From positions 62,001 to 126,000 of the forward strand of contig NZ_FCOU01000012.1 of NCBI RefSeq assembly GCF_900046475.1: DNA of 64,000 bases, given 5' to 3'. A model generated the notes under the pieces. The model searched no databases. It saw only the letters and a program-made list of their open reading frames with translations, and had not been told where the DNA came from. The position numbers and the translations under genes were made by a program. This document shows positions 34,289 to 58,659 of this stretch, in pieces. This stretch comes from Collinsella ihumii (GTDB lineage Bacteria; Actinomycetota; Coriobacteriia; Coriobacteriales; Coriobacteriaceae). Position 1 is the stretch's first letter. Each line of letters opens with the position of its first letter.

Positions 34289-37045
34289 CTACTTGGCATC
34301 CGCCCAGGTGACACCCGTGGACGCCTCGGCGATCAGAGGGACGCGCAGCTTAACGACACCCTCCATCTCCTCGACGACCATCGCGGTCAGGCGCTCGACC
34401 TCGTCGACGGGGCACTCGAAATCGAGTTCGTCGTGCACCTGCAGGATCATGCGCGCGGCGAAGCCCTCGTCGTGAAGACGGCGGGCGACGCGCGCCATGG
34501 CGATCTTGATGATGTCGGCCGCACTGCCCTGCATGGGATGGTTCATGGCCGTGCGCTCGCCGAACGAGCGCTGTGCCGGGTTGCGCATCTTGAGCTCGGG
34601 GATGGGCCGACGGCGCCCGAACATGGTCTCGGCATACCCCGTGCGCTTGGCCTCGGCGACGGTACGGTCGAGGTAGGTGCGCACGCCGGGATACGCGCGG
34701 AAATACGCCTCGATCATCTCGCGTGCCTCGGCCATGGGGATGTCGAGCGATTGCGAGAGGCCGTAGGCCTGCTGGCCGTACACGATGCCGAAGTTCACGG
34801 CCTTGGCGCGGCTGCGCAGCTGGGGCGTGACCTCCTCGACCGGCACGCCGAACACGCGCGCGGCGGTCTCGGCATGAAAGTCCTCCCCCTCGTTGAAGGC
34901 GCGCACCAGGTGCTCGTCTTCGGAGAGGTGCGCGAGCAGGCGCAGCTCGATCTGGCTGTAGTCGACCGCGAGGAACACCGCGCCCTCGCCTGCCGCGAAC
35001 GCCGTCTTCACGGTGTGCCCGAGCTCGGAGCGGGTGGGGATGTTCTGCAGGTTGGGGTTGGACGACGACAGGCGGCCCGTGGCGGTGATGGTCTGGTTGT
35101 ACGTGGTGTGCACGCGGCCGTCCCCGCGACGCTGCTGGCCGAGCGTGTCCAGATAGGTAGACTTGATCTTGGTCTTCTCGCGCCATTCGAGGATCAGGCG
35201 GACGATCTCGTGGTCGCGCGCGAGGTCGTCGAGCACCTTCGCGTTGGTGGAATAGTAGCCGCGCTGCGTCTTCTTGAGGCCCTTGGTGGGCAGGCCCATG
35301 ACGTCGAACAGGATGTGCGACAGCTGCATGGGGCTGGCGATGTTGAAGGAGTCGTCGCCCGCGAGCGCGCGGATGCGGCCGGCGAGCTCGTCGATCTGGC
35401 CGACGAGCTTGTCGGACATCTCGCTCAGGCGCTCGGGGTCGAGGCGCATGCCCGTGCGCTCCATATCGGCGAGCACCGGGATGAGCGGCATCTCGATCTG
35501 CGTGAACACGCGCGCGGCGCGTGTACGGTCGAGCGACTCGGCAAGCGGCATGAGGGCCGTGCGCGCAAGGACTGCCGAGCGCGCGGCGGCGGGCACGGCG
35601 CCCTCGGCAGCGCCGTCTTCACCCGCGGCGGCGGGAAGCTGCACGTTCAGGTACGCGTCCGCGATGTACCCGTCATCGAACGACGAGCGCGCCGAATCGA
35701 GCAGGTAGGCGGCGACGACCGTATCGAAGATCCGGTCGGGATCGATTTCGAGGGCATCGATGTGGGCGGGCGCGGAGGAATCGGCCGGGGCGAGCTCGTG
35801 GATAAGCGCCTTCACGTCCGGGGAGACGACTTTCCCCTCGCCGAACAAGCGGAGCAGCACGCCCGCGATCAGGCCGTGCGAGAAGTCGTAGCCGTCGACC
35901 GTCGGCAGATCGCAGGCGCCGCCGTCGGGCTCCTCGAAGGCGAGCAGCGCGTCGGGGGCAGCGACCCACAGCGTGTGCGTGAGGCCGAACAGGGCCTCCG
36001 CCTCGCGGTCGTCGTCGAGCACCGCGGCGATCCACTCCCCCGCCTCGATGGCACGCGCGAGCTCGCGGGCGGCCTGCTCGACGTTCTCGCCCGTCGCGGC
36101 GTAGGCATGCAGGGCGTCGGGGATATCGAGGGTCGAGGCGGCCGCCTCGGGCGCGCCCTCGCCGCCGATTAGCGCGAGGAAGCGGTTCTGCATGGCGTTG
36201 ATGCCCAGCTCCCCGAGGGCGTCCGCGACCGAGGACGCGTCGTATGCCGGAAATGCCGTGTGCTCGAAATCGAGCTCGACCGGCGCGTTCGTCTGGATGG
36301 TCGCCACCTTGCGCGAAAGCAGCGCGTCATCGATGTGCGCGCGCAGGTTCTCGCCCATCTTCCCCTTGACCTCGTCAGCGTGCGCGATGACCTCGTCGAG
36401 CGAGCCGTACTGCGCGATCAGCGCGCTCGCCTTCTTGGGGCCGATGCCCGGCACGCCGGGGATGTTGTCGGAGGTGTCGCCCTTGAGGCCGTAGAAATCG
36501 GGCACGAGCTCGGGCGTGATGCCGTGGTAGAGGTCCTCGACCGACTCGGGCGTCATAATCTGGACGTCGGAGAGGCCCTTCTTGGTGCCGACGATCTTCA
36601 CGTGCTCGGTGGAGAGCTGGTACATGTCGCGGTCGCCGGTGATGAGGTACATGTCGCAGCCGGCCGCCTCGCCCATGCGCGCGAGCGTGCCCAGGATGTC
36701 GTCGCCCTCCCAACCCTCGGCCTCGAGGATGGGCACCGACAGCTTGGTCAGAAGCTCCTTGATCATGGGGAACTGCTGGCGCAGGTCCGGGTCCATGGGC
36801 GGGCGCTGGGCTTTGTACTGCGGGAGCATCTCCATGCGCACGCGCGGCTTGCCGCGGTCGAAGGCCACCGCCACGCCGTCCGGATGGAACGCGTCGATCA
36901 TCTTGAGGAACATGTTGAGGAAGCCGAAGATGGCGTTCGTGGGGCGGCCGTCCGGCGCATTCATGGTGGGCGGCACGGCGTGGAACGCGCGGTGCATCAG
37001 CGAGTTGCCGTCGATGACGGCAAACGTGCGGCGGGTATCGGGCAT
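34289..37045 (-). CDS. polA: DNA polymerase I
   Basis: A 918-residue family A polymerase for Okazaki fragment processing and repair. Residues 1-300 are the 5'-3' exonuclease (IDGNSLMHRAFH, TGDRDMYQL, FYGLKGDTSDNIPGVPGIGP). The middle domain (about 310-500) shows no DEDD motifs, so proofreading is likely absent, as in many Gram-positive enzymes. The polymerase has motif A VDYSQIELRLLAHLS, motif B RSRAKAVNFGIVYGQ and motif C LQVHDELDFE near the end. ETMFGRRRPIPEL and MNHPMQGSAADI are also typical. It begins 243 bases from the nearest convergent inverted-repeat element and is followed by the HAD gene. Confidence 0.96.
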   Translation of the reverse strand: MPDTRRTFAVIDGNSLMHRAFHAVPPTMNAPDGRPTNAIFGFLNMFLKMIDAFHPDGVAVAFDRGKPRVRMEMLPQYKAQRPPMDPDLRQQFPMIKELLTKLSVPILEAEGWEGDDILGTLARMGEAAGCDMYLITGDRDMYQLSTEHVKIVGTKKGLSDVQIMTPESVEDLYHGITPELVPDFYGLKGDTSDNIPGVPGIGPKKASALIAQYGSLDEVIAHADEVKGKMGENLRAHIDDALLSRKVATIQTNAPVELDFEHTAFPAYDASSVADALGELGINAMQNRFLALIGGEGAPEAAASTLDIPDALHAYAATGENVEQAARELARAIEAGEWIAAVLDDDREAEALFGLTHTLWVAAPDALLAFEEPDGGACDLPTVDGYDFSHGLIAGVLLRLFGEGKVVSPDVKALIHELAPADSSAPAHIDALEIDPDRIFDTVVAAYLLDSARSSFDDGYIADAYLNVQLPAAAGEDGAAEGAVPAAARSAVLARTALMPLAESLDRTRAARVFTQIEMPLIPVLADMERTGMRLDPERLSEMSDKLVGQIDELAGRIRALAGDDSFNIASPMQLSHILFDVMGLPTKGLKKTQRGYYSTNAKVLDDLARDHEIVRLILEWREKTKIKSTYLDTLGQQRRGDGRVHTTYNQTITATGRLSSSNPNLQNIPTRSELGHTVKTAFAAGEGAVFLAVDYSQIELRLLAHLSEDEHLVRAFNEGEDFHAETAARVFGVPVEEVTPQLRSRAKAVNFGIVYGQQAYGLSQSLDIPMAEAREMIEAYFRAYPGVRTYLDRTVAEAKRTGYAETMFGRRRPIPELKMRNPAQRSFGERTAMNHPMQGSAADIIKIAMARVARRLHDEGFAARMILQVHDELDFECPVDEVERLTAMVVEEMEGVVKLRVPLIAEASTGVTWADAK

Positions 37046-39229: not shown

Positions 39230-39712
39230 GGTTGGGCTCTCGGCGTGCAGGGGCGCGAAATGGCAAATACCCATAAGGACATGAGACATGGTGGCGGCAA
39301 GCGTTTTGATGATAGATTGAGCATCTTTTCGACCTTTAATTAAGAACATAACGTGCAGAAATCCCAGTCCCGTTCTCCATCGCGAGAGCAAAGCATTTGA
39401 GAAACGGCATCATCCGGCTTGCAGGCTAATCTGCTCTCGCTAAGGAGAACGGCGTTGTCGTGTTCGCTTCAACGAAAGCATCGACGTATGTCATTCGTCC
39501 TAAGGTGAAATCTGATCTGGATTATGGCCTGCGCCGCCGCCCTTCTATCTCGCGGCGCATCACAAGCAGCGAGTAAAACCAGCGATACTTGCACGCGAAT
39601 GCGATGTAAACAAACGCACTGGATAACATGCCTGCTAAACAGTCGGAATGTGCAGAGATTGTCGGTAATCGCTGAGGGGAACTCGAAATACGGACGGTTG
39701 CGCCGCCCTGAA
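39230..39712. other. Intergenic region before the CRISPR trailer end
   Basis: No gene is seen. The section from 39300 to 39690 is poorer in G and C than the surrounding genes and may be degraded sequence. A GAGGGGAACTC near 39673 recalls the repeat end but is too weak to call. Confidence 0.4.
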
Positions 39713-42669
39713 GGACAATCCCCGCATGCGTGGGGAACACCTCCTTGTTTGCCTATCGTGGCAAAACCAGAAGGGATCATCCCCGCATGCGCGGGGAACA
39801 CTTCCAATGGGCGTCGACCAGCGGTCCCCTGCGGGGATCATCCCCGCATGCGCGGGGAACACAGCGACTTCTCGCCGACCCTGATCCCCCGCCTGCGGAT
39901 CATCCCCGCATGCGCGGGGAACATCAGAGACAGCGCGAAGCGTTGTCTTCAATCTGGGGATCATCCCCGCATGCGCGGGGAACACGCATCGTGATTGAGG
40001 GAAAGCAGAATCAAGCGGGGATCATCCCCGCATGCGCGGGGAACACCACTGGGAGCTGGAGGTCGGATGATCGGGCTCGGGATCATCCCCGCATGCGCGG
40101 GGAACACAACGGCCAGAATTACCATGACTACCGGTTCGAGGGATCATCCCCGCATGCGCGGGGAACACATATAGCGTAACTGGTCGCGATCGTTGCTAGT
40201 GGGATCATCCCCGCATGCGCGGGGAACACTCCACAAGGATCGCCTCGAGGGCGTTGCACCCAGGATCATCCCCGCATGCGCGGGGAACACGCCTTTCGCC
40301 CATCGCTTGCAACGCCGCTATCGGGATCATCCCCGCATGCACGGGGAACACGCGCCGGCAGCACCATCCTGACCGTTCTGGCCGGGATCATCCCCGCATG
40401 CGCGGGGAACACTGCTTTGCGCTTTTGCTTTGGCGTGAGGCCATAGGATCATCCCCGCATGCGCGGGGAACACGATTGTTGCGGCGCTGAGCACGCCGCC
40501 GATGAGGAATCATCCCCGCATGCGCGGGGAACACGTGACGCCGAAGCTCGCGAGCGTGTACGTGGTGGGATCATCCCCGCATGCGCGGGGAACACGGCTC
40601 GCGCCCGTCCATGCGGTTTGTCGAATAGGGATCATCCCCGCATGCGCGGGGAACACCAGTTCATGCAGATATTGACGGAATATCCGTGGGGATCATCCCC
40701 GCATGCGCGGGGAACACCGTGGCGTAGGTCGACCCGTATTCGTGGACGTGGGATCATCCCCGCATGCGCGGGGAACACGTGACGAAGGGCCGGTGGGATT
40801 CGTCAATGCGGGGATCATCCCCGCATGCGCGGGGAACACACGTCGTCGCGTCTGGCTCTCTCCTCAGCCACGGGATCATCCCCGCATGCGCGGGGAACAC
40901 TCGCCGTCGACGAGATACTTTCCGAACCGGTTGGGATCATCCCCGCATGCGCGGGGAACACTGCGCTTACGAATATTCCTCCTCGATGTCAATGGGATCA
41001 TCCCCGCATGCGCGGGGAACACAGGTTCTTCCACTCGAACACGGACATATAGATGGGATCATCCCCGCATGCGCGGGGAACACGTGAGCGGCGAGACGGA
41101 TCCGTGGTACCGTGAGGGATCATCCCCGCATGCGCGGGGAACACACCTCGCAGACCCGGCGCAGGGCGGCGAGCCGGGGATCATCCCCGCATGCGCGGGG
41201 AACACTCGAGGTCGAGCTTGAGCGTGTCCGTCGCCATGGAATCATCCCCGCATGCGCGGGGAACACTGCGCGCGAGAACGGAAGGACATCGAAGCCAAGG
41301 GATCATCCCCGCATGCGCGGGGAACACCCGAGACGCGCCCGAGACGTTCACTTGCGACTGGGATCATCCCCGCATGCGCGGGGAACACACTGTCAAAGCA
41401 GCCATTGCAATCCGTTTCAAGGGATCATCCCCGCATGCGCGGGGAACACTGCGCTTGCGAATATTCCTCCTCGATGCCAATGGAATCATCCCCGCATGCG
41501 CGGGGAACACAGCCGTCCAAATCTATGTACTCGACGCTGATAGGGATCATCCCCGCATGCGCGGGGAACACCGAATCAGGCGCAATCCCTCGAAGTGTCC
41601 TGCAGGATCATCCCCGCATGCGCGGGGAACACGCTGGCCTTGTGACTTGTCCCGCTGTTGCTGTGGGATCATCCCCGCATGCGCGGGGAACACGCTGGCC
41701 TTGTGGCTTGTCCCGCTGTTGCTGTGGGATCATCCCCGCATGCGCGGGGAACACGACACGTCGAGGACGCACACCATCCCGATCTGGGGATCATCCCCGC
41801 ATGCGCGGGGAACACTGGTCCGTCGCGTAGACCACGACGGACTGGCCGGGATCATCCCCGCATGCGCGGGGAACACGCCAACCGCTTGAGGGCGGCGTGG
41901 TGCCGGACGGGATCATCCCCGCATGCGCGGGGAACACCTGGCGGTCGACGACTCGGTCGGGGACTCCTTGGGATCATCCCCGCATGCGCGGGGAACACAC
42001 GCTGTGGTAGTACACGGCGAACTCGGGACGGGGATCATCCCCGCATGCGCGGGGAACACGACTCGAGCGAGGCGGTGGAGGTCGTGCGCGAGGGATCATC
42101 CCCGCATGCGCGGGGAACACCGGTAATTTGATGCTGGCCTACCGAGATAGAAGGGATCATCCCCGCATGCGCGGGGAACACCTTACCAATTGTAAAGCCA
42201 TTGGCGCTAGCAAGGGATCATCCCCGCATGCGCGGGGAACACTAGAGGACATGGCCGATTTGCATGACGAAATGGGGATCATCCCCGCATGCGCGGGGAA
42301 CACTGACCGTTGATTATGGCGTGATTGAACAGTTCGGGATCATCCCCGCATGCGCGGGGAACACGACGCTTGGTGACCGGCGTTAATCTCCTTCCTGGGA
42401 TCATCCCCGCATGCGCGGGGAACACTAGCCGACGCTTTGGGCATAAGCCAGCAGAGCGGGATCATCCCCGCATGCGCGGGGAACACTGCCATACTCAACG
42501 ACTCCGAACTTTGAGTAGGGGATCATCCCCGCATGCGCGGGGAACACCTCGCGGCCTTGCCGTCCAGCGCGCTCTGGAGGGGATCATCCCCGCATGCGCG
42601 GGGAACACTTCGCGCGCTACGGCTACACGTGCCATCGCGAGGGATCATCCCCGCATGCGCGGGGAACAC
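39713..42669 (-). CRISPR. Type I-E CRISPR array, 49 repeats and 48 spacers
   Basis: The 28-base repeat (plus strand GGATCATCCCCGC, ATGC, GCGGGGAACAC) recurs every 61 bases from 39713 to 42642. One interval is 62 (the spacer at 39863-39896 is 34 bases). Spacers are otherwise 33 bases. On the minus strand the repeat begins GTGTTCCCCGC and ends GATGATCC, matching the type I-E pattern, with a CCCCGC/GCGGGG stem and a GCAT loop for Cas6e. The leftmost repeat is degenerate, marking the trailer; the leader is at the right next to cas2. Point variants occur at 39713, 39897 (last base), 40324, 40507, 41239 and 41483. The base before the repeat is G in 44 of 48 spacers. Confidence 0.98.
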
Positions 42670-42771: not shown

Positions 42772-43134
42772 CTACCTGCTGCCAAACCGCTTAGCCTTCC
42801 TATGCTTGCTTGCATCGCTCCAGCCTTTTGCAGGTGCCCCGACAAGTGTTGCATTGTCAGTCCCCGCCGGCCGACACATAAGCCTTACGCCATCGCAATC
42901 AACCGGCAGCCAATCGGGTTGATGCACTTTGAAATCAAAATGCTGTTCGTTACGCGCCGTGAACACCATGATTGCACGTCCACCCCTCACTAATGACACG
43001 ACGCGTTCCCACAACCTCTCGCGCACACGCGCGGATACTCTTCCCACAAACACGCCGGGCGCGATCTCGAGCAGCCATCGAGACACATCCCCGCGCAAGC
43101 CAGGAGGACAGGCGGTCAATACCAGAACTACCAT
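42772..43134 (-). CDS. cas2: CRISPR-associated protein Cas2e
   Basis: A 120-residue Cas2 of the type I-E form. It opens with a beta strand, MVVLVLTACPPGLRGDVSRW, where family members have LTxCPPxLRG, followed by EIAPGVFVGRVSARVRERLW, typical of the I-E type. It forms the central dimer of the Cas1-Cas2 integrase. The start is six bases after the cas1 stop, with AGGAG between. The last 25 residues are basic. No DEDDh domain is fused. Confidence 0.95.
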   Translation of the reverse strand: MVVLVLTACPPGLRGDVSRWLLEIAPGVFVGRVSARVRERLWERVVSLVRGGRAIMVFTARNEQHFDFKVHQPDWLPVDCDGVRLMCRPAGTDNATLVGAPAKGWSDASKHRKAKRFGSR

Positions 43135-43140
43135 AAGCTC

Positions 43141-44115
43141 CTACTCCCCGTCATCCGGTCCATACTGTCTCCCGGCAGCGACTTCTCCGACCTTCTCGTC
43201 CCATAGACCAACATGATTCTCTTCAGGTCCTCCCAGGTCAGCCATACCGTCATCGTTCAACAACGCTTTTATATCGCGCACCGCACGGTCCATAAGAGAA
43301 AAGTCGTAAAGAACGTTGCGCATCGCGTGGCGCACAGCGGAGCCGATATCCACCGGTTCTTCCGCAACAGTCCTAAAGGCAACAGGAATGGACAGCTCCG
43401 CTTTGTACAAGTCGGCGATGTCGTACACAAATGACCTCTCGTGACCCGTATGGACAAACCCAAGTCCAGGAGAGCAGCCCAACGCAACAATCACTGCATG
43501 CACGACCCCATACAGGCAGGTATGCGCCGCAGAAAGTGCCTTATTGATCTCGGTCCCGTCTTCGTACGCATCGGGATCATACGCGCGCCGGTCCCATGCC
43601 ACCCCCGTCTCCTTCGATAGGCGACGGTACACGTTTCGAATGCGGGCACCCTCACGGCCACGCAGCTGTTGCATCGTGAGTCCACCGGTATCCTCACCGG
43701 GAAACCTCATCTGGTACATGGCCCGAGCAACCGCAAGACGCGAGCGTCTGTTAGACACAAGCGCCGCCTGTCGCTGCAAAAGCGAGCTCGAATGGGTAAG
43801 CGGCCTGCCTGCGGCATACATGCGCACGCCACGCTCCCCCACCCACACAACAGTTGAGCCGTTCTCGCCGATGGCGACCATCGCTTTATGCGATATCTTC
43901 GTTCCGGGACCAAGCAGCAGCACGCTCAACGTTGCTGCCGGGATTCGGATGGTTCCCCGATCGTCGGTGACGGTAATCGAGTTATCGGCCTGACTTACCG
44001 AGCAGCGCTCGAAGTACAAGAACGAAATTCGATCCTCGACACGCGCCAAGTCGGCAACTTCAGTCGGGGTGGCACTCGGAACGGAACCGGTCGCCACCCC
44101 TTCCTTTGCGGTCAC
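43141..44115 (-). CDS. cas1: CRISPR-associated endonuclease Cas1e (integrase)
   Basis: A 324-residue Cas1 that inserts prespacers at the leader end. The start is taken as the GTG at 44115, whose GTGA overlaps the cas6e stop and which has GGAG five bases upstream. An ATG further up would overlap cas6e by 43 bases. LARVEDRISFLYFERC is the usual beginning of the beta domain. The alpha domain shows the metal-site Glu in LRGREGARIRNVY, His in GFVHTGHERSF and Asp in VYDIADLYK. About 20 residues precede the core that are not usual. Confidence 0.95.
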   Translation of the reverse strand: MTAKEGVATGSVPSATPTEVADLARVEDRISFLYFERCSVSQADNSITVTDDRGTIRIPAATLSVLLLGPGTKISHKAMVAIGENGSTVVWVGERGVRMYAAGRPLTHSSSLLQRQAALVSNRRSRLAVARAMYQMRFPGEDTGGLTMQQLRGREGARIRNVYRRLSKETGVAWDRRAYDPDAYEDGTEINKALSAAHTCLYGVVHAVIVALGCSPGLGFVHTGHERSFVYDIADLYKAELSIPVAFRTVAEEPVDIGSAVRHAMRNVLYDFSLMDRAVRDIKALLNDDGMADLGGPEENHVGLWDEKVGEVAAGRQYGPDDGE

Positions 44116-44807
44116 CGCGTCTCCGATATTGGAGCAATGGTAAGTAAGCCGCATCCAAAGCCCTTGGCGCGGCCGATTCCAAAACCCAAGGCCTTTCGAA
44201 ATTGCTGAGCATCGGTAACCTTGAGCACGCCGTCATACTGAGCGGTCACCAGGGTCACCGTTCCGCCGTCTCGCTTGAATTGCTCTCGATACCGATGCGA
44301 AACGGACAGCGCATCTGCCCCACTCGCCGACGGCATGATCTCGAACCCGTGCGCGCAGGCCCGGTCTAGCAACCATGTTCTCTGCTGCGCTTCGGTAACA
44401 TGCCCTTGAATCGAGCCGCGGATACCGTCTCTGGGCACGTTCCCCTTATCGCGAGCTACTTTTCGAACCGGGTTCGCCTTAAGCCGAAATTGCCAGCACT
44501 GACCACATGAAACATTGTTGAGAACATTGTCGTACAGCTTGGTCTGGGGTTCACAATCCGTCGGTGTCCCCGCCTGGTCGACGATGGATGCGCAGTCAGG
44601 CATTTCCGGACTTAAGACGTAGAGCCATAAACAGTCTCCACGTCCGTTCGCGTCATCGAGCCTCCAAAGGATTCTGCCCGATTCGCATACCCGTTTTGCA
44701 TGTTCCGGAAACGACGCCTCCACGGCCGCATGAATCCGATACGGAGAGCTCGCAAACTGCGCACCCTTTCGATGACTAATATCGATGGGAATCCTTGTCA
44801 GATACAT
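44112..44807 (-). CDS. cas6e: CRISPR RNA endonuclease Cas6e
   Basis: A 231-residue ferredoxin-like endoribonuclease that cuts the pre-crRNA below the repeat stem. The start at 44807 (MYLTRIPIDI) is typical of Cas6e, with AGGTGAGG upstream. A candidate catalytic His is in the RIHAAVEASFPE segment, near residue 26. The C-terminal KALGFGIGRAKGFGCGLLTI contains the Gly-rich loop of the family. Its end overlaps cas1 by four bases. Confidence 0.94.
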   Translation of the reverse strand: MYLTRIPIDISHRKGAQFASSPYRIHAAVEASFPEHAKRVCESGRILWRLDDANGRGDCLWLYVLSPEMPDCASIVDQAGTPTDCEPQTKLYDNVLNNVSCGQCWQFRLKANPVRKVARDKGNVPRDGIRGSIQGHVTEAQQRTWLLDRACAHGFEIMPSASGADALSVSHRYREQFKRDGGTVTLVTAQYDGVLKVTDAQQFRKALGFGIGRAKGFGCGLLTIAPISETR

Positions 44808-44816
44808 CTCCCTCAC

Positions 44817-45539
44817 CTATATCCACGAAAAAGGATCGTGTCCGGTAGCCATCGGCCCCGAGGTTGCCTCGGCACCATCCTCCTCATCGTCTGCACCCGG
44901 AATCGGAAGCCACAAGGATACGACTGGTCGACACGCATATCTGCGCCCCGCGAGACTGAACGACAATGGGTAGTCTGCCCTGCTCTCGCAGGCCTCCCCA
45001 TCGCGCGCATCGAATGTCGCCTCAAGCTCTGTCATGTCTCCATGGCGCACTCGATACCAGTCCACAGCGATCCACGGCTCGCGGCGCAGGGCATCGCGAA
45101 CGTCATCGTATTCGTAGCGCACGCCGAGCGTCACGGGAAGCGTCGCAGGACACGAACGACGACCGAGGTACAACGGCCAGCGTGGAGACCGCAGGGCGCG
45201 GTCAAGTTGCCCGAGCATATCATCCGGACCACCGAGCGCCACCAGATATGCAGCATCCTGCAGGTAGTACCGTTGCGAAAGCGGCATGACCTTGTCACCG
45301 GAAAGCGACCGCTCGGTCTGAAAATCCCGTAGAAGCGTCCCCGGCTGATCTGCACGCACGCCCATCTCGAGCTGCGCGAGGTCCTCTACGGAATCTTCGC
45401 GCCCCCTCCCCAATGCCGATGCGAGCAATCCGACCACACCGCTTTTCGTCGGTTCATGCCGCGTGGTCCTCCGCACAAACCGCGCGGAATCGCCCCATGC
45501 CTGCATGGGCCCTGCAAGCCGCAGCAGCAGGACGCTCAT
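44817..45539 (-). CDS. cas5e: Cascade subunit Cas5e
   Basis: A 240-residue protein that caps the 5' handle of the crRNA. MSVLLLRLAGPMQAWGDSAR is the standard Cas5e opening. RHEPTKSGVVGLLASALGR is the conserved first helix, and the segment around SLSGDKVMPLSQRYYLQDAAYL is typical. Its start overlaps the cas7e stop by four bases. The last 25 residues are acidic. Confidence 0.95.
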   Translation of the reverse strand: MSVLLLRLAGPMQAWGDSARFVRRTTRHEPTKSGVVGLLASALGRGREDSVEDLAQLEMGVRADQPGTLLRDFQTERSLSGDKVMPLSQRYYLQDAAYLVALGGPDDMLGQLDRALRSPRWPLYLGRRSCPATLPVTLGVRYEYDDVRDALRREPWIAVDWYRVRHGDMTELEATFDARDGEACESRADYPLSFSLAGRRYACRPVVSLWLPIPGADDEEDGAEATSGPMATGHDPFSWI

Positions 45540-46678
45540 CGCTCCTCCTCATGCTGAAGATGCGATGCGACCGCCCCGGAAACCTGGTCGATGAGATCCT
45601 TGAATCCCATACGCTCTCCAAGAGCAGACAGTTCATCGGAATCTGCCTTTTCGACCGTTGTACACCATTTGCCATCTGCAGGCTGGGCATATGCACCTTC
45701 TACCAAATCCAGCTCTTCAGCGAGCCGCGTGGCAGCCTGGCGAGAGATCGACATCCCCTCGATCGGACGAACGGGATCCTCAAACGCACCGACGACGTTG
45801 ATAGGTTGATCGCTGCGCACGGCGACGCAAACCGTGCTCGGAAGGGTACGGTTCGCAAAGGTGTTCTGCTTGCCTGTCGGCATCGAGCGAACAAAAGCGT
45901 CGACGAACGCTGCGCATGCACGCGTTGTCGCTTCGGCATCCTCGAGCTGCTCGAACAGCGCGTCGACGTTTACCGTCGCATAGCGGTAGAGCGTCGAGGA
46001 GTTGAAATCGACCGTTCCGATCATTCCCGCTCCCGCATTGTCTTCAGCAGCGCAATCGTCAACGGCTGTGAAATAGTCATACTCCTGGGTGATGCGGTCC
46101 ACAGAAATCGCGTGGGCAACCTGAGCCGAAGCGTCGGTATTGAAATCGGGGGCCTCTGCAAGCATACGGCCGAATAACGCGACGTCAACAGCTTGGTGCC
46201 CCTTGAACGCTGAGGAGACCTTCTTTTTGAGCTTTGCGTCCACCTTTTTGAGATCGATCCCCTGGTCCGCCCATTCGACCGCAACGCGCGCCAATGCCCG
46301 AATCTCGGCGCGACTGATGAAAATCAGATAGCCGGTTTCATCCGACTCTTTATCCGACCCCTGGCGCGTCGACTTCTTCACCTTCACCCCTGCGGCGGTC
46401 AGCACTGCAACGGCATAATCCGAGGCACTGTCGGCAAGATCGGGTCTGAGTTCCGCGATCTGCTCAGCCAGGAGCCGGACGATAAGCTTGGTGCGAACAC
46501 CGAGCGAGCCTTCGGGAAGAAGCGTCGGGAACATTTCGCGCATTGCGCGCTTCCAGGCCTGGCTGGACACACGCGATCGCAAAACTCCGCCGTACATGGC
46601 GGTCTTGGGACTTCCCGTATCGTCGCGATTGATATTGCTGGGCGGCACGTTATGGATTGCATAAACATCGATGAACAT
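45536..46678 (-). CDS. cas7e: Cascade backbone subunit Cas7e (Cse4/CasC)
   Basis: A 380-residue RRM-fold protein, six copies of which line the crRNA. FIDVYAIHNVPPSNINRDD and PKTAMYGGVLRSRVSSQAWK are the family signature. The thumb region and the C-terminal TRLAEELDLVEGAYA are present. AGGAGG precedes the ATG. It lies 12 bases after cse2 and overlaps cas5e. Confidence 0.96.
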   Translation of the reverse strand: MFIDVYAIHNVPPSNINRDDTGSPKTAMYGGVLRSRVSSQAWKRAMREMFPTLLPEGSLGVRTKLIVRLLAEQIAELRPDLADSASDYAVAVLTAAGVKVKKSTRQGSDKESDETGYLIFISRAEIRALARVAVEWADQGIDLKKVDAKLKKKVSSAFKGHQAVDVALFGRMLAEAPDFNTDASAQVAHAISVDRITQEYDYFTAVDDCAAEDNAGAGMIGTVDFNSSTLYRYATVNVDALFEQLEDAEATTRACAAFVDAFVRSMPTGKQNTFANRTLPSTVCVAVRSDQPINVVGAFEDPVRPIEGMSISRQAATRLAEELDLVEGAYAQPADGKWCTTVEKADSDELSALGERMGFKDLIDQVSGAVASHLQHEEER

Positions 46679-46690
46679 GGTTCCTCCTCG

Positions 46691-47305
46691 TTACTCGTCT
46701 TGTTTTTCCTGATCATGCGGAGCGGAGTAGTAATCACGCGACCAGCGCATGAACACTCCCTCGCGCGTTTTCTCCCCTTGCAATAAATAAAGGTCGGCAG
46801 CGAGCGTCCGATAATCCACCTGCACGTTCTTCCCGCGCATCAGGGTGATCAGGCCGCGTAGCTGATGCTCCATCTCGCTCAACCCCGCCGCTGACTCCAC
46901 CGCAGCAAGTTTTCTCCTGATTCCTGTGGCGTCGTCCAAATCCGGCTCGACCAAACGACAGGAATGCCCGAAGGAACGCCGCCGATCGCCTTGTTCCGGC
47001 ACGAACGCCATGGGGACGACCCGGGACTGCTGATGCCATGCGTACAGCTCAAGCGCCACCCTTATCGCCGTTATCATCCGCTCTTCACCACGCGCGGACA
47101 GCCCAAGGTCAGGAAGATCATCCATGAGAACCGCACCTTCGACCATCCAGCGACTCACGTGCCCCGGACGGCGCAGGCGCGCTAGGGTCGCCCTCGCCTC
47201 AGAAGCCAGCGAAGACCCGGATAGGTACATGGTTTGGAGACGGCGAATCTTGCCGTCAGCGCATGCACCGATGGCAGACGCCTCCCGATACACCGACCTT
47301 ATCAT
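46691..47305 (-). CDS. cse2: Cascade small subunit Cse2 (CasB)
   Basis: A 204-residue, mostly helical protein, two copies of which stabilise the displaced strand in Cascade. The fold-typical segments are RATLARLRRPGHVSRWMVEG and a basic helix near RRSFGHSCRLVE. The ATG overlaps the cse1 stop (TGATG), with GAGGAGG upstream. Identification rests on length, position between cse1 and cas7e and on these helices. Confidence 0.92.
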   Translation of the reverse strand: MIRSVYREASAIGACADGKIRRLQTMYLSGSSLASEARATLARLRRPGHVSRWMVEGAVLMDDLPDLGLSARGEERMITAIRVALELYAWHQQSRVVPMAFVPEQGDRRRSFGHSCRLVEPDLDDATGIRRKLAAVESAAGLSEMEHQLRGLITLMRGKNVQVDYRTLAADLYLLQGEKTREGVFMRWSRDYYSAPHDQEKQDE

Positions 47306-48999
47306 CAGCCTACCTCCTCGACTTGTTCATCGGTTACCGAAGCCGCGCCGTCCGCCCCGCCCGTGTGAGCAAGGTATTTCGCCAGCGAGGCCCTGAACAT
47401 CGCAATTGCCCGTCCGCTCGTCATCCTTTCGCTTTCGCGAAACGCCGAAAACCCCGATGACGCCAGGTACGACACGGCGATGCGATCAAGCGCAACGCGA
47501 ATCTCATCCCGCCACGCATTGCAAAACTCGTCCAGCTCGTTTTCCGGCGCGCAGTGTGCCAACCTCCTACGAAAGATGCCGTCGAGTTCGTCGTAGGCGC
47601 ACTCGCGCACGCCCTCGTCGGCAACAGGCTGGTCGGCACCGTTGGCGGTCTGCACGTTCTGGACGAATCGCACCAGCGCGCGCACCGAGTCCTCCGCTTG
47701 CGCAACCATCTCGATTGCCGCGGAAACGCCCTCGGCGTCACGGTGGAACAGCGTCGCGTCGAGATCGATGTAATCGTCGACCATGTCGATGATCACGCTA
47801 CTCTGCGTGCCATATACGACCCCCTGAGCCCGCACGCGCACCGGCCTGTGGCGCACGGTGTCATCGGCAGAAATCCGCTCGAGATGGTCCGCCCATCGGA
47901 CAACTCCCGAGCGAAGGTCTCCTCCTGATGTGACGCCATCGCGTGAGACACCAAGCAGCGACGAAAGACCTCGCCAAAGCGCCTTGGACGAATCGGGGGC
48001 GATTGGCATGAGCGGCACGTGCGCAGTCTGCAGCTTCTTTTGCTGCTCTTTGCTCTCGCGCCAACTCGTCATCAGCTCGGAGTCATACTTATCTGCCGCA
48101 CGCGTCGCATCTCCGTAACAGATAACGACGCCACGAACCGTCAGCGTCTTTTCATCGGGAACCAGACGAATCCTTCTGCTCTGCCACGTCAGCAGGTCGA
48201 TCGGACCAACCGGCTCGCGCACAACCATCTCGGCGTTAGGTGCGGGCCGCTCCCAAGGAGGTAAATCTCCGTCGATACCCAGCAACTTTTTGCCGTTCAA
48301 GAACAGCACCCAGTTACGCATTATGGTCTCAAAGAGATTCTCACCTTCAATGTAGAGACCGCCAATTGAGCCGCACCAGCCAGTCCCAAGCATCCCTTTT
48401 GGCGGGTACGCTTTGCCACCCTTGACGTCGCGATAACCCACGACAGGCGATTTAATGCCCGCCGGATCATAGGCCTGGGCGAGCAGCAAGCATCGCGCAG
48501 CCTCATCGCATGTCAGTCCGACCGGACCATGGTTTGAGCGCATGGAGAACAGGAACTTGTCCGGTTTCGGCATATCGATAATTAACTCAGATATGGGATC
48601 GGGATCCTTGGCGGCATAGGCGAGATCTGCGACCTGGTAGAAAGGTTCGGGACCGAACAGGTCGAACCGATCGTGAACATCGCTAAGGTAAGGATCGATG
48701 TCCCCCATTTCAAATCTTCCGCACGAGAACAGCTGATTCCAGAGATCGGTAAGGCTTCCCTCCGTCGCCAACTCCGAATCTCCAGCCTGCCAATAGACGC
48801 AGTAGAACACCGCGAGCGCCAAGCGCAGGATCGCGATGCGCTCGAGCGCTATATCTCCGGAAACCGACCGGATCTGATGCGCACGGACAAAGAGATCACG
48901 CAATGACACCTCATCGGTCGTGCCGTCAAGCAGCAGGACGGGAACCCACGGCTCGTCAAGTAGGTTGAAATGAATCGATTGACTTGATATTTCAGTCAT
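47305..48999 (-). CDS. cse1: Cascade large subunit Cse1 (CasA, Cas8e)
   Basis: A 564-residue protein that reads the PAM and recruits Cas3. FNLLDEPWVPVLLLDGTTDE is the family opening, followed by ALERIAILRLALAVFYCVYW. A middle region contains TGWCGSIGGLYIEG, and the four-helix bundle occupies the last 150 residues. The ATG has AAAGGAGG eight bases upstream. The 173-base gap to cas3 holds a degenerate CRISPR-like element and a putative promoter, so this is likely the first gene of the Cascade operon. Confidence 0.96.
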   Translation of the reverse strand: MTEISSQSIHFNLLDEPWVPVLLLDGTTDEVSLRDLFVRAHQIRSVSGDIALERIAILRLALAVFYCVYWQAGDSELATEGSLTDLWNQLFSCGRFEMGDIDPYLSDVHDRFDLFGPEPFYQVADLAYAAKDPDPISELIIDMPKPDKFLFSMRSNHGPVGLTCDEAARCLLLAQAYDPAGIKSPVVGYRDVKGGKAYPPKGMLGTGWCGSIGGLYIEGENLFETIMRNWVLFLNGKKLLGIDGDLPPWERPAPNAEMVVREPVGPIDLLTWQSRRIRLVPDEKTLTVRGVVICYGDATRAADKYDSELMTSWRESKEQQKKLQTAHVPLMPIAPDSSKALWRGLSSLLGVSRDGVTSGGDLRSGVVRWADHLERISADDTVRHRPVRVRAQGVVYGTQSSVIIDMVDDYIDLDATLFHRDAEGVSAAIEMVAQAEDSVRALVRFVQNVQTANGADQPVADEGVRECAYDELDGIFRRRLAHCAPENELDEFCNAWRDEIRVALDRIAVSYLASSGFSAFRESERMTSGRAIAMFRASLAKYLAHTGGADGAASVTDEQVEEVG

Positions 49000-49030
49000 T
49001 ATTAAGGCCTCCTTTCATATTATTGAATGA

Positions 49031-49093
49031 GTTCCAACCCCCCACATAAGTGGGGAACACGACAAAATTATCCTTTTATCAAGGATCATTCCC
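49031..49093 (-). ncRNA. Degenerate mini-CRISPR between cas3 and cse1, candidate crRNA-like RNA
   Basis: Read on the minus strand: GGGAATGATCC (49083-49093, one mismatch to the last 11 bases of the repeat), then a 22-base pseudo-spacer (49061-49082), then a second degenerate repeat GTGTTCCCCACTTATGTGGG and on to 49031. The second repeat keeps the first nine bases exactly. Its stem is intact because the G-C pair at positions 10/17 is replaced by A-T (CCCCAC/GTGGGG). This is the arrangement of crRNA-like regulator RNAs of the CreA/CreR kind. The pseudo-spacer starts TTGATAAAAGGA, and 11 of these bases recur in the promoter just upstream. Not recognised by standard CRISPR finders. Confidence 0.6.
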
Positions 49094-49146
49094 AAAGGAC
49101 GAAGAGCCCCATGGGAGGAAAGCGAAATAACGCCCCCCTATAAGAG

Positions 49147-49176
49147 TATCTAACTGATAAAAGGAATATTTATCAA
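49147..49176 (-). promoter_or_regulatory. Putative promoter and operator of the Cascade operon
   Basis: On the minus strand TTGATA (49171-49176) and TAGATA (49147-49152) are 18 bases apart. Between them lies TGATAAAAGGA (plus strand 49155-49165), the candidate target of the pseudo-spacer, preceded by AAC at 49152-49154. TGATAAA and TTTATCA also form a palindrome around seven bases (49155-49175), which could alternatively bind a protein repressor. Confidence 0.5.
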
Positions 49177-52100
49177 TCTAGGCGAACGGCAGATAATCCG
49201 CCCTCTCTGGTATACGAAACCAGCCAATCGCCGATACGTGTCTCAAACTGGGAGCCACGACGCTCAAGCGCCACAAACAGCTTGCCCGCAATCCAACTGG
49301 ATTCTTGCCAAGCTCCAACGAACCATCCGCAATGGCTCTCTAGTGAGCTGATCAGGGCATCGATATTCCTCGACGCGCACATAGAAAGCGGTAAGCGCAC
49401 GGCGCATTGGGCCATCGTGGCGGCGAGCTCTTCATCGGGCTCCCACTCTATAGGCACAACCCTGCCGTAGCCATCTTGTAAGGAAGCGCCCTCCATCTCT
49501 GCTGAACGGTCGCACGGCACCCACGGCAGCAAGCGCATCGTCTCGCCATCGCGCTCCAGCAGTAGAACCTCCACGCTTTCCTGCGTGTCTCGAACCGCGC
49601 GTGGACCGAAATCGTCGTCTTGACGACGCGTGCCATCAGCGTCCGCGTTGCGCGAAAACAAATCGTCTAGACCACGGCCATCTCGTACATATGGAGAGGC
49701 TTCTGCAAGCAAATAGGCCTGGGCCCTTCTCTTCTTTTCCGCTTGATGCTCCCTGCGTTTTGCCGTTGCATCGCGATAAGCGTCGCCCCAGCCTTCCGGC
49801 ATCATCCGACCCGCATCCGAGCTGTATGCACTTTGTACAAGCGGAGCGATGCAATCAGGAAGCACAACCTTCCCAATCGCATCGAATCGATCGAGGCCGA
49901 GCACGGCGAGGGATTCCATGAGCGAAGCGGAATCGTAGACGTTCAGCAATCCGGGGCGAAACGCGGGTACAGGCTCAATGCAAGTCACGCCGCGCACGAA
50001 GCACCGCGCACTCCGCACGCGAACTGGCCGGTCCCCCTGCTCCGCTCCACGCTCGTGCCGGTGCATGCGGCCCAGTCGTTGCAGCACCAAGTCGATTGGA
50101 GCGATATCGCTCACCATGACATCGAAGTCGATATCAAGGGACTGCTCCAGCACCTGGGTTCCCACGACGACCAAACGCTGTGGACGCGTTCCGTTCGTCA
50201 CGGATGAGTCGGGGCCGAGCAGACGACGCAGCTTCGCCTCGTTCTCCATGCGGTCGCAGTCCATGAAGCGCGCATGGACGAGCATGAGCTCATCGTTGGG
50301 GAAGCGCTCGGAGAGCGCCGCCAAAGCCGCTTGGGCGCGCGATACGGTGTCGCAGACCACCGCCGCGCATCCACCATCAACGAGAATCCTCGAGAGCAGA
50401 TCGGCAAGCTCATCCGGACCGTCATCGATCAGCTGCAGGTCCACATGCGTAGACCGCGATGAGCGCTCGGCGGGAATCGTCCGCACACCGGAGCGCTCAA
50501 CCACCGTGAGCAAGGGATAGATAGGCTCCTCCGCCGAAGCCTGCAAAGCAAGGGCACCATTCCGTCCTTCGTCCGCGCTCGCCGCGACGCCCCTTCTTTT
50601 TCTCCTGCCGGTCCGCAAGGCGGCAAGTAGGCCTTCCGCCCCCGAACCGCCCATGGGGCGAGCCATCAAGCCCGCGCGATATGCGTCAGCAAGATCAGAG
50701 CGCAATCCCGACGGCAACGTGGCTGACAGAAGAATCACCGGGGTCCGCATCGTGGCGAGCCATTCGAGCACGCGGCGCAGGTACATCTGCATGTAGGTAT
50801 CATATGCATGGCACTCGTCGATGATGACGACCTTGTTCGCGAGCGCAAGATGGCGCAACGACAGGTGCCTCATCTGCAAGGCGCCCATAAGCACCTGGTC
50901 GACCGTGCAGACCACGAAGTCAGCGAGCATTCCCTTCTTCCTGCCGCACATCCACGACGACACCTCGGCGCGTTCGCTTGCAAAGACCTCGTCTTCCCGT
51001 GCCGCATCGGCATCCTCGTCGATACCGATCGGACATGCTTCGTACCCTGACGCTGGCCGCGAGATGATACCTTGGTATTCCTCGTTGAGGCGAGCTTTCC
51101 CGTGCGCAAGGTAGATGGTATCTCGATCTCTCTCATCAGCAGGAAGCCTGTTGATCCACGCATGGACCCTGCCGAACATAGCGTCGGTCGTCGCCATCGT
51201 GGGAAGCGCGATGCAAACCCCGCCATGCCCCGAGCGCACCGCCAAGATCTCTGCCGCAGCGAGCGCCGCCTCGGTCTTTCCCTCCCCCATGGGCGCCTCG
51301 ACGATCAACATTCCTGCCGTATCCATTGTTTGCGCCGTCTCAATGGCCTTGCGCTGAACGGGTCGTATCGTCGTATCGCCCGGCAGATCGAAACGCTGCA
51401 AGAACGCATCGGCGGACACCACCGATGAATCGGATTCGACCCAAGAGGACTCCACACCAGACAACCTCCACCCACGCGAGGCACGCTGCGCGAGTCCCTC
51501 GAAATCGACAATGCCCTCCCGAGAAAACCCACCATCGCTGCCCTCAGGATAGATAAGGGGAAAGAATCGCTCATTGCTCGCCAACCAATCGGCCATGATG
51601 ACCAAGCCGGCGATAACGTTGGCGCACGGGGCGCCGAGGGAGCAGCGTTCGAGCTCAAACAAGGCATCATCATCCATACCGGCACAAACGCGTGCCAAGT
51701 CAATTAGCTCCGCATGGGCTTGCTCCCAACCAAGCGTTTCTGCGGGACCCGTCAACCCGATTCCGAGACGTCGTGGATGGTCGGACGCATCAAGAAGATC
51801 AACGTTACGCGGAGGGTTGCCGTGATGCGCACCGATGACGGAGCTTACCGATTGGGCCACCCGGAGCGAAAGCCCCATCTCGGTAAGATAACGCTCGAGC
51901 AGCACTTCTCCGGCGATGGCGTGGGTAGGCCTGCGAAGGCGCATACCCGGTCGAACATCGAGCCCCACCCTTTCCGGGATCCATGCCAAAGAGGAGAACT
52001 CGCCATAGCCCTTCACCACATCCCTAGCTTGAAACACGGGGGTCGCTTTACCAAGATCGTGAACGGCGCACAGGAATAAAGTCGTCGCGCGCGCCCGGTC

Positions 52101-52298
52101 AAGGCTGTCGTTAAAGGAGAGTGCCAAAGCTTCCTTCGTCCCCCGTGGCAACCAGAAGTCCCACAGCCTTTCCCCCATCGCAGCGGTGTCGCACGCATGA
52201 ATGAACAGGGGAAGCCATCCCTGGCCGTCAGTACGATCAGATTTGGCCCACAGCGAGCGGGTTGCCTTCGATAGCTTGCATTCGCTCTGAGCATACAT
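49173..52298 (-). CDS. cas3: CRISPR-associated helicase/nuclease Cas3
   Basis: A 1041-residue protein recruited by Cascade to unwind and degrade target DNA. The start at 52298 has GGGGAG six bases upstream; a GTG 39 bases earlier is also possible. The N-terminal HD nuclease domain has LFIHACDTAAMG near residue 33 and LCAVHDLGKATP near 78. The SF2 helicase has Walker A VEAPMGEGKTEAA near 332, the DECH box VVIIDECHAYDTYM near 500, and motif VI LVLQRLGRMHRHE near 760. The C-terminal domain follows. It is upstream of the Cascade operon on the same strand; the preceding gene is a broken exonuclease. Confidence 0.96.
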   Translation of the reverse strand: MYAQSECKLSKATRSLWAKSDRTDGQGWLPLFIHACDTAAMGERLWDFWLPRGTKEALALSFNDSLDRARATTLFLCAVHDLGKATPVFQARDVVKGYGEFSSLAWIPERVGLDVRPGMRLRRPTHAIAGEVLLERYLTEMGLSLRVAQSVSSVIGAHHGNPPRNVDLLDASDHPRRLGIGLTGPAETLGWEQAHAELIDLARVCAGMDDDALFELERCSLGAPCANVIAGLVIMADWLASNERFFPLIYPEGSDGGFSREGIVDFEGLAQRASRGWRLSGVESSWVESDSSVVSADAFLQRFDLPGDTTIRPVQRKAIETAQTMDTAGMLIVEAPMGEGKTEAALAAAEILAVRSGHGGVCIALPTMATTDAMFGRVHAWINRLPADERDRDTIYLAHGKARLNEEYQGIISRPASGYEACPIGIDEDADAAREDEVFASERAEVSSWMCGRKKGMLADFVVCTVDQVLMGALQMRHLSLRHLALANKVVIIDECHAYDTYMQMYLRRVLEWLATMRTPVILLSATLPSGLRSDLADAYRAGLMARPMGGSGAEGLLAALRTGRRKRRGVAASADEGRNGALALQASAEEPIYPLLTVVERSGVRTIPAERSSRSTHVDLQLIDDGPDELADLLSRILVDGGCAAVVCDTVSRAQAALAALSERFPNDELMLVHARFMDCDRMENEAKLRRLLGPDSSVTNGTRPQRLVVVGTQVLEQSLDIDFDVMVSDIAPIDLVLQRLGRMHRHERGAEQGDRPVRVRSARCFVRGVTCIEPVPAFRPGLLNVYDSASLMESLAVLGLDRFDAIGKVVLPDCIAPLVQSAYSSDAGRMMPEGWGDAYRDATAKRREHQAEKKRRAQAYLLAEASPYVRDGRGLDDLFSRNADADGTRRQDDDFGPRAVRDTQESVEVLLLERDGETMRLLPWVPCDRSAEMEGASLQDGYGRVVPIEWEPDEELAATMAQCAVRLPLSMCASRNIDALISSLESHCGWFVGAWQESSWIAGKLFVALERRGSQFETRIGDWLVSYTREGGLSAVRLD

Positions 52299-52343
52299 GG
52301 CGGTCTCCCCGATCGCGAGTTCACATTCCCCGGGCACAAGGGG

Positions 52344-57075: not shown

Positions 57076-57212
57076 CGGCGTCTCGCCTCCCCTCGCGCCA
57101 TCGAGGTCGCATGTCCATTATCGCCTACATTCCCGACGCCCACCACCGCGCTTCGCACTATACTGGAGTGCAGCAGAGCGCCAACCCGTGCGGGAGGCGC
57201 CGCACAATCGCA

Positions 57213-57308
57213 TATCACGGGGAGCTTGCAGGACACCACGGCAGGCTGAGAGGGGACGCGCCCGTCCCGACCCGAGGAACCTGATATGGGTAATGCCAAC
57301 GAAGGGAG
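57213..57308 (+). promoter_or_regulatory. TPP riboswitch upstream of thiC
   Basis: The THI-box core is visible: ACGGGGAGC, GGCTGAGAGGGGACGCG, CGACCCG, GAACCTGAT and GGGTAATGCCAACGAAGGGAG in order. The last helix contains the GAAGGGAG that serves as ribosome binding site for thiC, so thiamine pyrophosphate binding should block translation. A TATACT at 57159-57164 is a candidate -10. Confidence 0.93.
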
Positions 57309-57315
57309 CATGCGT

Positions 57316-58659
57316 ATGAACGCACCCAACACTGCCAATCTTGTCACGCAGCTCGACTACGCGCGGGCGGGCGTCATCACCGACGCCATGCGCGCCGTCG
57401 CCGAGCGGGAACACCGCGATCCGGAGTTCATCCGCGCGGGCGTGGCGGCGGGCCGCATCGCCATTCCGGCGAACATCCGCCACCTCGACATGGGCCTCGA
57501 GCCCCGCGGCGTCGGGGCCGGCCTCTCCACCAAGGTGAACGTCAACCTCGGTATCTCCGGCGATGTCGCCGACGCCGATGTCGAGTGGGAGAAGGTGCGC
57601 ACCGCCGAGAAGTTCGGCGCCGACGCCATCATGGACCTCTCCAACTCCGGCAAGACGCGCTTTTTCCGCCAGCAGCTCGTGCGCGAGACGCCGCTCATGG
57701 TGGGCACCGTCCCCATGTACGACGCCATCGGCTACATGGAGAAGCCCCTGGTCGAGCTGACCGTCGACGACCTGCTCGAGGTCACGCGCGCGCACGCCGA
57801 AGACGGCGTGGACTTCCTCACCATCCACTGCGGCATCAACAAGAGCGTCATCAAGACCTTCAAGGAGACAGGCCGCCTCATGAACATCGTGAGCCGCGGA
57901 GGCTCGCTGCTGTTCGGCTGGATGGAGGTCACCGGCAACGAGAACCCCTTCTTCGAGTACTACGACGAGATCCTGAAGATCTGCCATGAGTACGACGTCA
58001 CCATCTCGCTCGGCGACTCGTGCCGCCCGGGCTGCCTCTACGATGCGAACGACGCCGTGGAGACCGCCGAGATGATCGAGCTGGGCAAGCTCACCAAGCG
58101 CGCATGGGACGCCGGCGTCCAGGTCATGATCGAGGGCCCCGGGCACATGCCCATCAACGAGATCGAGGCCAACGTGGCGCTCGAGAAGAGCCTGTGCCAC
58201 AACGCGCCCTACTACGTGCTCGGCCCGCTCGTGACCGACATCGGCGTCGGCTACGACCACATCACCGCGGCGATCGGTGGCGCCATCTCGGCGAGCGCCG
58301 GCGCAGACTTCCTGTGCTACGTCACGCCCGCCGAGCACCTGTGCCTGCCGAACGCGCAAGATGTGCTCGACGGCCTCATCGCCACGAAGATCGCCGCGCA
58401 CGCCGCCGATATCGCCAAGGGCGTGCCCGGCGCGAAGGACGTCGACAACCGCATGGGAGACGCCCGCCGGCGCCTCGCCTGGGACGAGATGTGGACCTAC
58501 GCGCTCGACCCGGTGACGTCGAAGGCGCGCTACGAGGCATCCCCCGCTTCCACCGAGGGCACCTGCACCATGTGCGGCAAGATGTGCGCCGTGCGCACGG
58601 TCAACAAGGTGTTCGAGGGGACGACGATCGATCTCGACGCCCAGGGGAATACGGATTGA
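57316..58659 (+). CDS. thiC: Phosphomethylpyrimidine synthase ThiC
   Basis: A 447-residue radical SAM enzyme that converts aminoimidazole ribotide to HMP phosphate for the pyrimidine half of thiamine. The start at 57316 is seven bases after GGGAG; an ATG at 57310 is too close. The C-terminal CTMCGKMC motif (Cys-X2-Cys-X4-Cys) binds the iron-sulfur cluster. LSTKVNVNLGISGD, SNSGKTRFFRQQL, SRGGSLLFGWM and EGPGHMPINEIEANV are conserved. It is the first gene of the thi cluster. Confidence 0.97.
   Translation: MNAPNTANLVTQLDYARAGVITDAMRAVAEREHRDPEFIRAGVAAGRIAIPANIRHLDMGLEPRGVGAGLSTKVNVNLGISGDVADADVEWEKVRTAEKFGADAIMDLSNSGKTRFFRQQLVRETPLMVGTVPMYDAIGYMEKPLVELTVDDLLEVTRAHAEDGVDFLTIHCGINKSVIKTFKETGRLMNIVSRGGSLLFGWMEVTGNENPFFEYYDEILKICHEYDVTISLGDSCRPGCLYDANDAVETAEMIELGKLTKRAWDAGVQVMIEGPGHMPINEIEANVALEKSLCHNAPYYVLGPLVTDIGVGYDHITAAIGGAISASAGADFLCYVTPAEHLCLPNAQDVLDGLIATKIAAHAADIAKGVPGAKDVDNRMGDARRRLAWDEMWTYALDPVTSKARYEASPASTEGTCTMCGKMCAVRTVNKVFEGTTIDLDAQGNTD

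Follow-up and report, generated by a model that had tools for sequence, protein, structure and literature searches.

The question raised by this locus is what a single degenerate CRISPR unit does between cas3 and cse1, inside a CRISPR-Cas operon that carries a full array of its own. An earlier note on this DNA had read the unit as the source of a crRNA-like RNA through which Cascade represses its own operon, in the manner of the Cas-regulating RNAs (CreR) reportedly described by Liu et al. in Cell Host Microbe in 2023. This reading is supported at the level of the sequence, and we consider it highly likely, by analogy with published CreR, that the unit is a CreR-type element by which Cascade represses its own operon, i.e., very probably a self-made brake on CRISPR defence.

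On its minus strand, the window, which is the whole stretch of 64,000 nt that was analysed, carries a complete type I-E CRISPR-Cas locus, in the order cas3, a 173-base gap, cse1-cse2-cas7-cas5-cas6e-cas1-cas2 and the array. Cas3 passed the core and HD models but failed to reach the cut-off set for the full-length model, PRK09694. The main array has 48 spacers, of 32 nt in 47 cases and 33 nt in one; it includes two near-identical spacer pairs differing by one or two bases (window 41693-41754 and repeat starts 41022/41510), as if the same type of invader had been sampled twice or a unit duplicated. The features of the locus, with their window coordinates, are the following:

49173-52337, minus strand: cas3, upstream of the gap
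49171-49176, minus strand: -35-like TTGATA (5/6 consensus), overlapping the cas3 stop codon, unlisted by the consensus scan
49155-49165, plus strand: seed target TGATAAAAGGA, copy of spacer positions 1-11 (from sequence)
49152-49154, plus strand: probable PAM, AAC (from relatives' targets and array position 29)
49147-49152, minus strand: -10-like TAGATA (3/6 consensus), 18 nt from the -35-like hexamer, unlisted by the scan
49090-49116, minus strand: left repeat hairpin of diverged sequence, its stem ending exactly at the handle (from folding)
49082-49089, minus strand: 5' handle AUGAUCCU, 8 nt, AUGAUCC plus repeat position 29 (U)
49061-49081, minus strand: spacer TGATAAAAGGATAATTTTGTC, 21 nt
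49040-49060, minus strand: right repeat with hairpin GTGTTCCCCACTTATGTGGGG (from sequence and folding)
49008-49015, minus strand: ribosome-binding-like AAAGGAGG of cse1 (by eye)
47305-48999, minus strand: cse1 (casA)
42772-47305, minus strand: cse2, cas7, cas5, cas6e, cas1 and cas2
39712-42669, minus strand: main array, 49 repeats

One degenerate repeat-spacer-repeat unit sits in the 5' leader of cse1, where the minus-strand order is a promoter-like stretch, a hairpin, the handle, the spacer, a second hairpin, a ribosome-binding-like site and then cse1 itself. The tail of the left repeat (GGGAATGATCC) was recounted and shares 10 of 11 bases with the array repeat, as had been claimed, although the left repeat is not the mere tail that had been described, a full diverged hairpin being present at 49090-49116. 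In the right repeat (GTGTTCCCCAC-TTAT-GTGGGG) the double change of a stem pair from G-C to A-T was found as reported. T49082 corresponds to repeat position 29, and the pseudo-spacer, which does exist, is therefore 21 nt long (49061-49081) and not 22, with its match at spacer positions 1-11; apart from this shift in register by one base, the earlier coordinates and counts were correct. The mature guide is predicted to span 49040-49089 (50 nt). At this level, the window thus shows what characterizes a CreR locus: close to the cas genes lies a crRNA-like unit whose flanks resemble repeats.

The recurrence of TGATAAAAGGA at 49155-49165 after AAC, previously numbered as spacer bases 2-12, stands with the numbering corrected to 1-11, and this target site lies immediately beyond the cas3 stop codon. 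Seed positions 1-5 and 7-11 match beside the PAM at 10 out of 10 bases. Mononucleotide shuffling of the 220 nt upstream produced the 11-mer, counted on either strand and with no PAM required, in 2 of 20,000 trials, and PAM plus seed (AAYTGATANAAGGA) had a single match in the 2.84-Mb, 35-contig assembly, namely the target site. The promoter hexamers proposed at the target are present but make a weak consensus match: the -10 is weak, and TTGATA-18-TAGATA was absent from the list of the consensus promoter scan, whose sole minus-strand candidate lay within the unit itself (49095-49067). Among the 20 loci with a unit (see below), a -10-like hexamer begins 1-10 nt past the PAM in 18, where 9.5 are expected from shuffled bases. 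Judging by position and by the weak hexamers, the target site is probably the cse1 promoter, and the match would then have the further mark of CreR, a PAM-flanked partial match to the candidate promoter of the own cas operon, covariation included.

In order to follow the unit in relatives, 30 Cse1 loci of the order Coriobacteriales were read, with the window's own locus among them; Cse1 was present in 33 of 395 genomes of this order. A true cas3-cse1 gap was found in 21 of the 30 loci and the unit in 20 of these 21. The one gap without a unit (L008) gave nothing when scanned for any candidate pair scoring ≥ 9; the repeat in its array nevertheless belongs to the same type as the others. In the remaining nine loci, cas3 abuts cse1 (eight loci) or has no visible frame (L028), and of three further genomes outside the 30, two have abutting genes and the third has a cas3 frame that, judged by coordinates, ends inside the cse1 match.

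The earlier note had made its reading depend on conservation of the seed/target match in relatives, and the match is conserved in 20 of the 21 gap loci, each with its own upstream site, an AAC or AAT flank and species-specific sequences. The best seed match (positions 1-5 and 7-11) in the 220 bases upstream lay on the same strand in 20/20 loci, scored 8, 9 and 10 of 10 in 4, 6 and 10 loci, and was flanked by AAC in 16 and by AAT in 4. When the spacers were dealt among the loci, none of 20,000 deals equalled the summed score actually obtained, 186 (the deals averaged 109.3 and peaked at 137), and cross pairs with a PAM (n = 380) scored 8 in 18 cases, 9 in 7 and 10 in none; as the loci are related, sister species do not provide independent cross pairs. 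Because the spacers had first been placed by eye, the test was redone with the hairpin as sole anchor and spacer length left free, which recovered 18 of the 21 loci (spacer lengths 20, 21 or 33) and missed L007 and L009, where the anchor took another hairpin, as well as L008; its cross control (n = 420) scored 8 in 39 cases, 9 in 7 and 10 in none (46 in all). Positions 1, 2, 4, 5, 7, and 8 are matched in all 20 loci, and on the Cse1 tree these six positions need at least 38 spacer changes and at least 38 target changes. Mismatches occur at position 3 in 4 loci, at 9 in 5, at 10 in 2, and at 11 in 3, and several of the loci concerned pair further at 13-17 (by eye), some seed mismatches apparently being compensated further along the spacer.

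The spacing of the mismatches bears on what does the pairing. Among the 20 loci, matches at positions 6, 12, and 18 number 5, 4, and 4 (3.9, 4.2, and 4.8 expected by dealing targets), and those at positions 10, 11, and 13 number 18, 17, and 17 (5.2, 11.2, and 5.7 expected). According to PMC13122317, a paper of 2026, Cascade leaves every sixth base unpaired, and the clustering of mismatches at 6, 12, and 18 is what Cascade pairing predicts. In a type I-B CreA (PMC8501985), transformation fell approximately 10,000-fold when any one of positions 1-5 or 7-11 was altered, with 6 and 12 free. As read from the loci compared, the pattern is seed-target covariation with a Cascade footprint, and these loci constitute a natural data set for the pairing rules of Cascade, with the seed held and every sixth base free. 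The degenerate repeats, and an 11-base match that is short when taken alone, could also be expected of a dead CRISPR remnant next to a chance repeat or of two operator sites for a protein regulator; we regard this as extremely improbable, since 20 loci covary with fixed register, strand, and PAM, and a protein operator would not vary freely at one base in six and yet change in concert at the others. Control at the RNA level, in which a read-through cas3-cse1 transcript would pair seed with target, or Cas6e cleavage of the leader would set mRNA stability, draws on the fact that the seed and target copies are complementary on the gene strand (inverted repeats) and that both hairpins lie within the presumed leader. 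A helix, however, has no reason for freedom at 6, 12, and 18, nor for AAC or AAT beside the match in 20/20 loci, and leader cleavage, which may well happen additionally, leaves the match unexplained, making this account very unlikely.

In type I-E systems, repeat position 29 is taken to derive from the last base of the PAM. The base adjacent to the repeat in the main array is C in 44 of 48 spacers, exactly as counted before (C 44, T 4, and G 1 over the 49 repeats, the 49th following the terminal repeat), and the arrays of 17 relatives (664 units) give counts of 562 C, 80 T, 14 G, and 8 A at position 29. These values agree with the last bases of the target flanks (C 16, T 4) and fit AAC as the probable PAM. 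Of the 21 gap loci, 19 have an array alongside, the stretches of L017 and L021 having reached the contig end first. Exact scans of viral contigs with the array spacers, meant for a PAM from phage protospacers, matched nothing, and the PAM therefore rests on repeat position 29 and on the PAMs of the targets. A set of 42 phage records that matched the array was rejected for this purpose, because the matches look to be mostly to repeat sequence. As a separate observation, several Streptomyces sanglieri phages (e.g., OL455886.1, ~34716-34737) share a 22-base identity with the array query, with 20 pieces matching; the stretch is probably the CRISPR repeat, and its presence in a phage might point to an RNA anti-CRISPR or a mini-array.

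The flanks of the spacer resemble the array repeat to different degrees across the 20 loci. The handle is identical to the array handle ATGATCC in only 3 but fits NTGNNCC in all 20. Standard pairs are found at five pairs of the right stem in 20/20 loci and at the sixth in 18/20; three of the pairs have changed on both sides. Next to the handle, the left 6-4-6 hairpin is complete in 9/20 and weaker in that register in the rest, and in the fold test a stem ended ≤ 1 base from the handle in 14/20 loci, against 35% of shuffles.

The nearest known relatives of such a unit are CreR and the CreA of CreTA. The text available for PMC8501985 describes CreA as having degenerate repeats around a pseudo-spacer and a seed at 1-5/7-11 beside a PAM, as the unit does here, although CreA belongs to type I-B archaea and represses a toxin RNA, whereas no toxin was recognised in the present locus. 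The seed match at 1-5 and 7-11 beside a PAM in the window is common to CreTA and CreR and cannot separate them. An addiction module of this kind, in which the guide would mainly repress a small toxin RNA or peptide between target and guide instead of the cas operon, finds a precedent in CreA guides, which share the seed and sit in cas loci (the creTA of H. hispanica lies between cas6 and cas8 in the accessible part of PMC8501985), and one unit could do both jobs. A toxin would have little room, the distance between PAM and handle being 11-152 nt (62 nt for the window's own locus, 11 nt for L019), part of it taken up by the left hairpin, and cse1 is the next gene after the unit in 20/20 loci; we consider a module of this kind highly improbable.

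We return to CreR, which is known for types I-B, I-E, and V-A from the reviews PMC12737573 and PMC13131331, and which resembles the unit in being a crRNA-like RNA in a cas locus with a partial match to a cas promoter. In comparison, the spacers of 20-21 nt in 18/20 loci and the location within the leader of cse1 are possibly specific to this clade. By analogy with published CreR, we infer RNA production, binding by Cascade, repression, and relief by anti-CRISPRs. A promoter just past cas3 would transcribe a leader holding the unit, followed by cse1 and the rest of the operon, and cleavage by Cas6e at both hairpins would release a crRNA-like RNA of ~50 nt. Cascade loaded with this guide would bind the PAM-flanked partial match of roughly 11 to 17 bases in its own promoter and block transcription, the shortness of the match presumably keeping Cas3 from attacking. 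Since the guide is located on the transcript under repression, guide and mRNA would be made together, and the brake could be lifted by array crRNAs competing for Cascade or by anti-CRISPRs disabling it. The loci show that selection has maintained CRISPR self-targeting at the probable cas promoter throughout a clade whose members are mostly gut-associated. In L019, the PAM stands so close to the handle that a start site of the presumed promoter would fall at or next to the 5' handle (by eye), and the 5' end of this guide might form without cleavage by Cas6e.

The length of the guides deserves separate consideration. Of the 20 unit spacers, 11 are 21 nt long (in L009 this length depends on a diverged right hairpin) and 7 are 20 nt long, whereas L007 and L005 have spacers of 32 and 33 nt; the array spacers of the relatives are mostly 32 or 33 nt, and 18/20 unit spacers are thus ~12 nt shorter. 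In the text available for PMC10989794, engineered 21-24-nt spacers in the type I-B system of Haloarcula hispanica left ~9-13% of the target mRNA, with primed adaptation undetected and Cas3 active, and a 20-nt engineered spacer left 44%. The likeness would lie in short guides serving gene repression; those guides are engineered, archaeal, of type I-B, and fully matched across the spacer, whereas the guides here are natural and partially matched, and seven of them have the 20 nt that was the weaker length in that study. It is conceivable, at slightly less than even chances in our judgement, that Cascade occurs here in a natural shortened form. With a guide lacking about two 6-nt Cas7 steps (20-21 against 32-33 nt), the complex would contain fewer Cas7 subunits and would bind its own promoter without a complete R-loop or a call for Cas3, guide length being a selected safety feature. 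If so, the operon would encode, as part of itself, a form of its weapon that can only bind, and the loci make it testable whether shortness of the guide separates regulation from cleavage. The guide of 20-21 nt is possibly a feature new to CreR: among the titles and abstracts listed for CreR in a mostly open-access library, none dealt with this clade or with short CreR spacers, and no paper was found there on Collinsella/Coriobacteri with type I-E.

The search was also carried beyond the loci described above. A search of genome contigs with a single Cse1 gave zero relatives, and an alignment-based search gave 281, of which the best 80 were kept; fifteen of these (L091-L105) were gap loci already read. 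Among the other 65 of the best 80 (L106-L170, with L108 being L024), the gap is ≤ 47 nt in 48 and > 70 nt in 15, with no frame in 2. The gaps of > 70 nt were set by a crude frame rule and some are plainly coding; the 15 were read by eye, the long ones to 700 bases, and gave one possible unit, L135. In this locus (Microbacterium luticocti, outside Coriobacteriia), two repeat-like hairpins flank a ~20-nt spacer upstream of cse1, and a convincing PAM-flanked target was not established. A search across the phylum matched in 22 of 396 genomes, and the stretches upstream of cse1 in 19 loci (order and phylum) were mostly abutting genes; repeat-like hairpins precede cse1 in L082 and L084, from other actinobacteria. 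Within the window, the sole Rfam match at gathering score was a TPP riboswitch at 57208-57324 (plus strand). The region upstream of cas3 was checked with a strict detector in 11 abutting loci of the order (L057, the twelfth abutting stretch, was excluded) and yielded one candidate, L053; the same detector finds just 7 of the 21 gap loci, and its misses therefore mean little. In L053, cas3 abuts cse1, and the stretch upstream of cas3 (oriented positions ~230-420) contains a mini-CRISPR whose spacer has the full length of 33 nt. Immediately downstream, next to TTGACA, is a site flanked by AAT that matches spacer positions 1-5, 7, and 8. The unit may thus be able to shift to the start of the operon.
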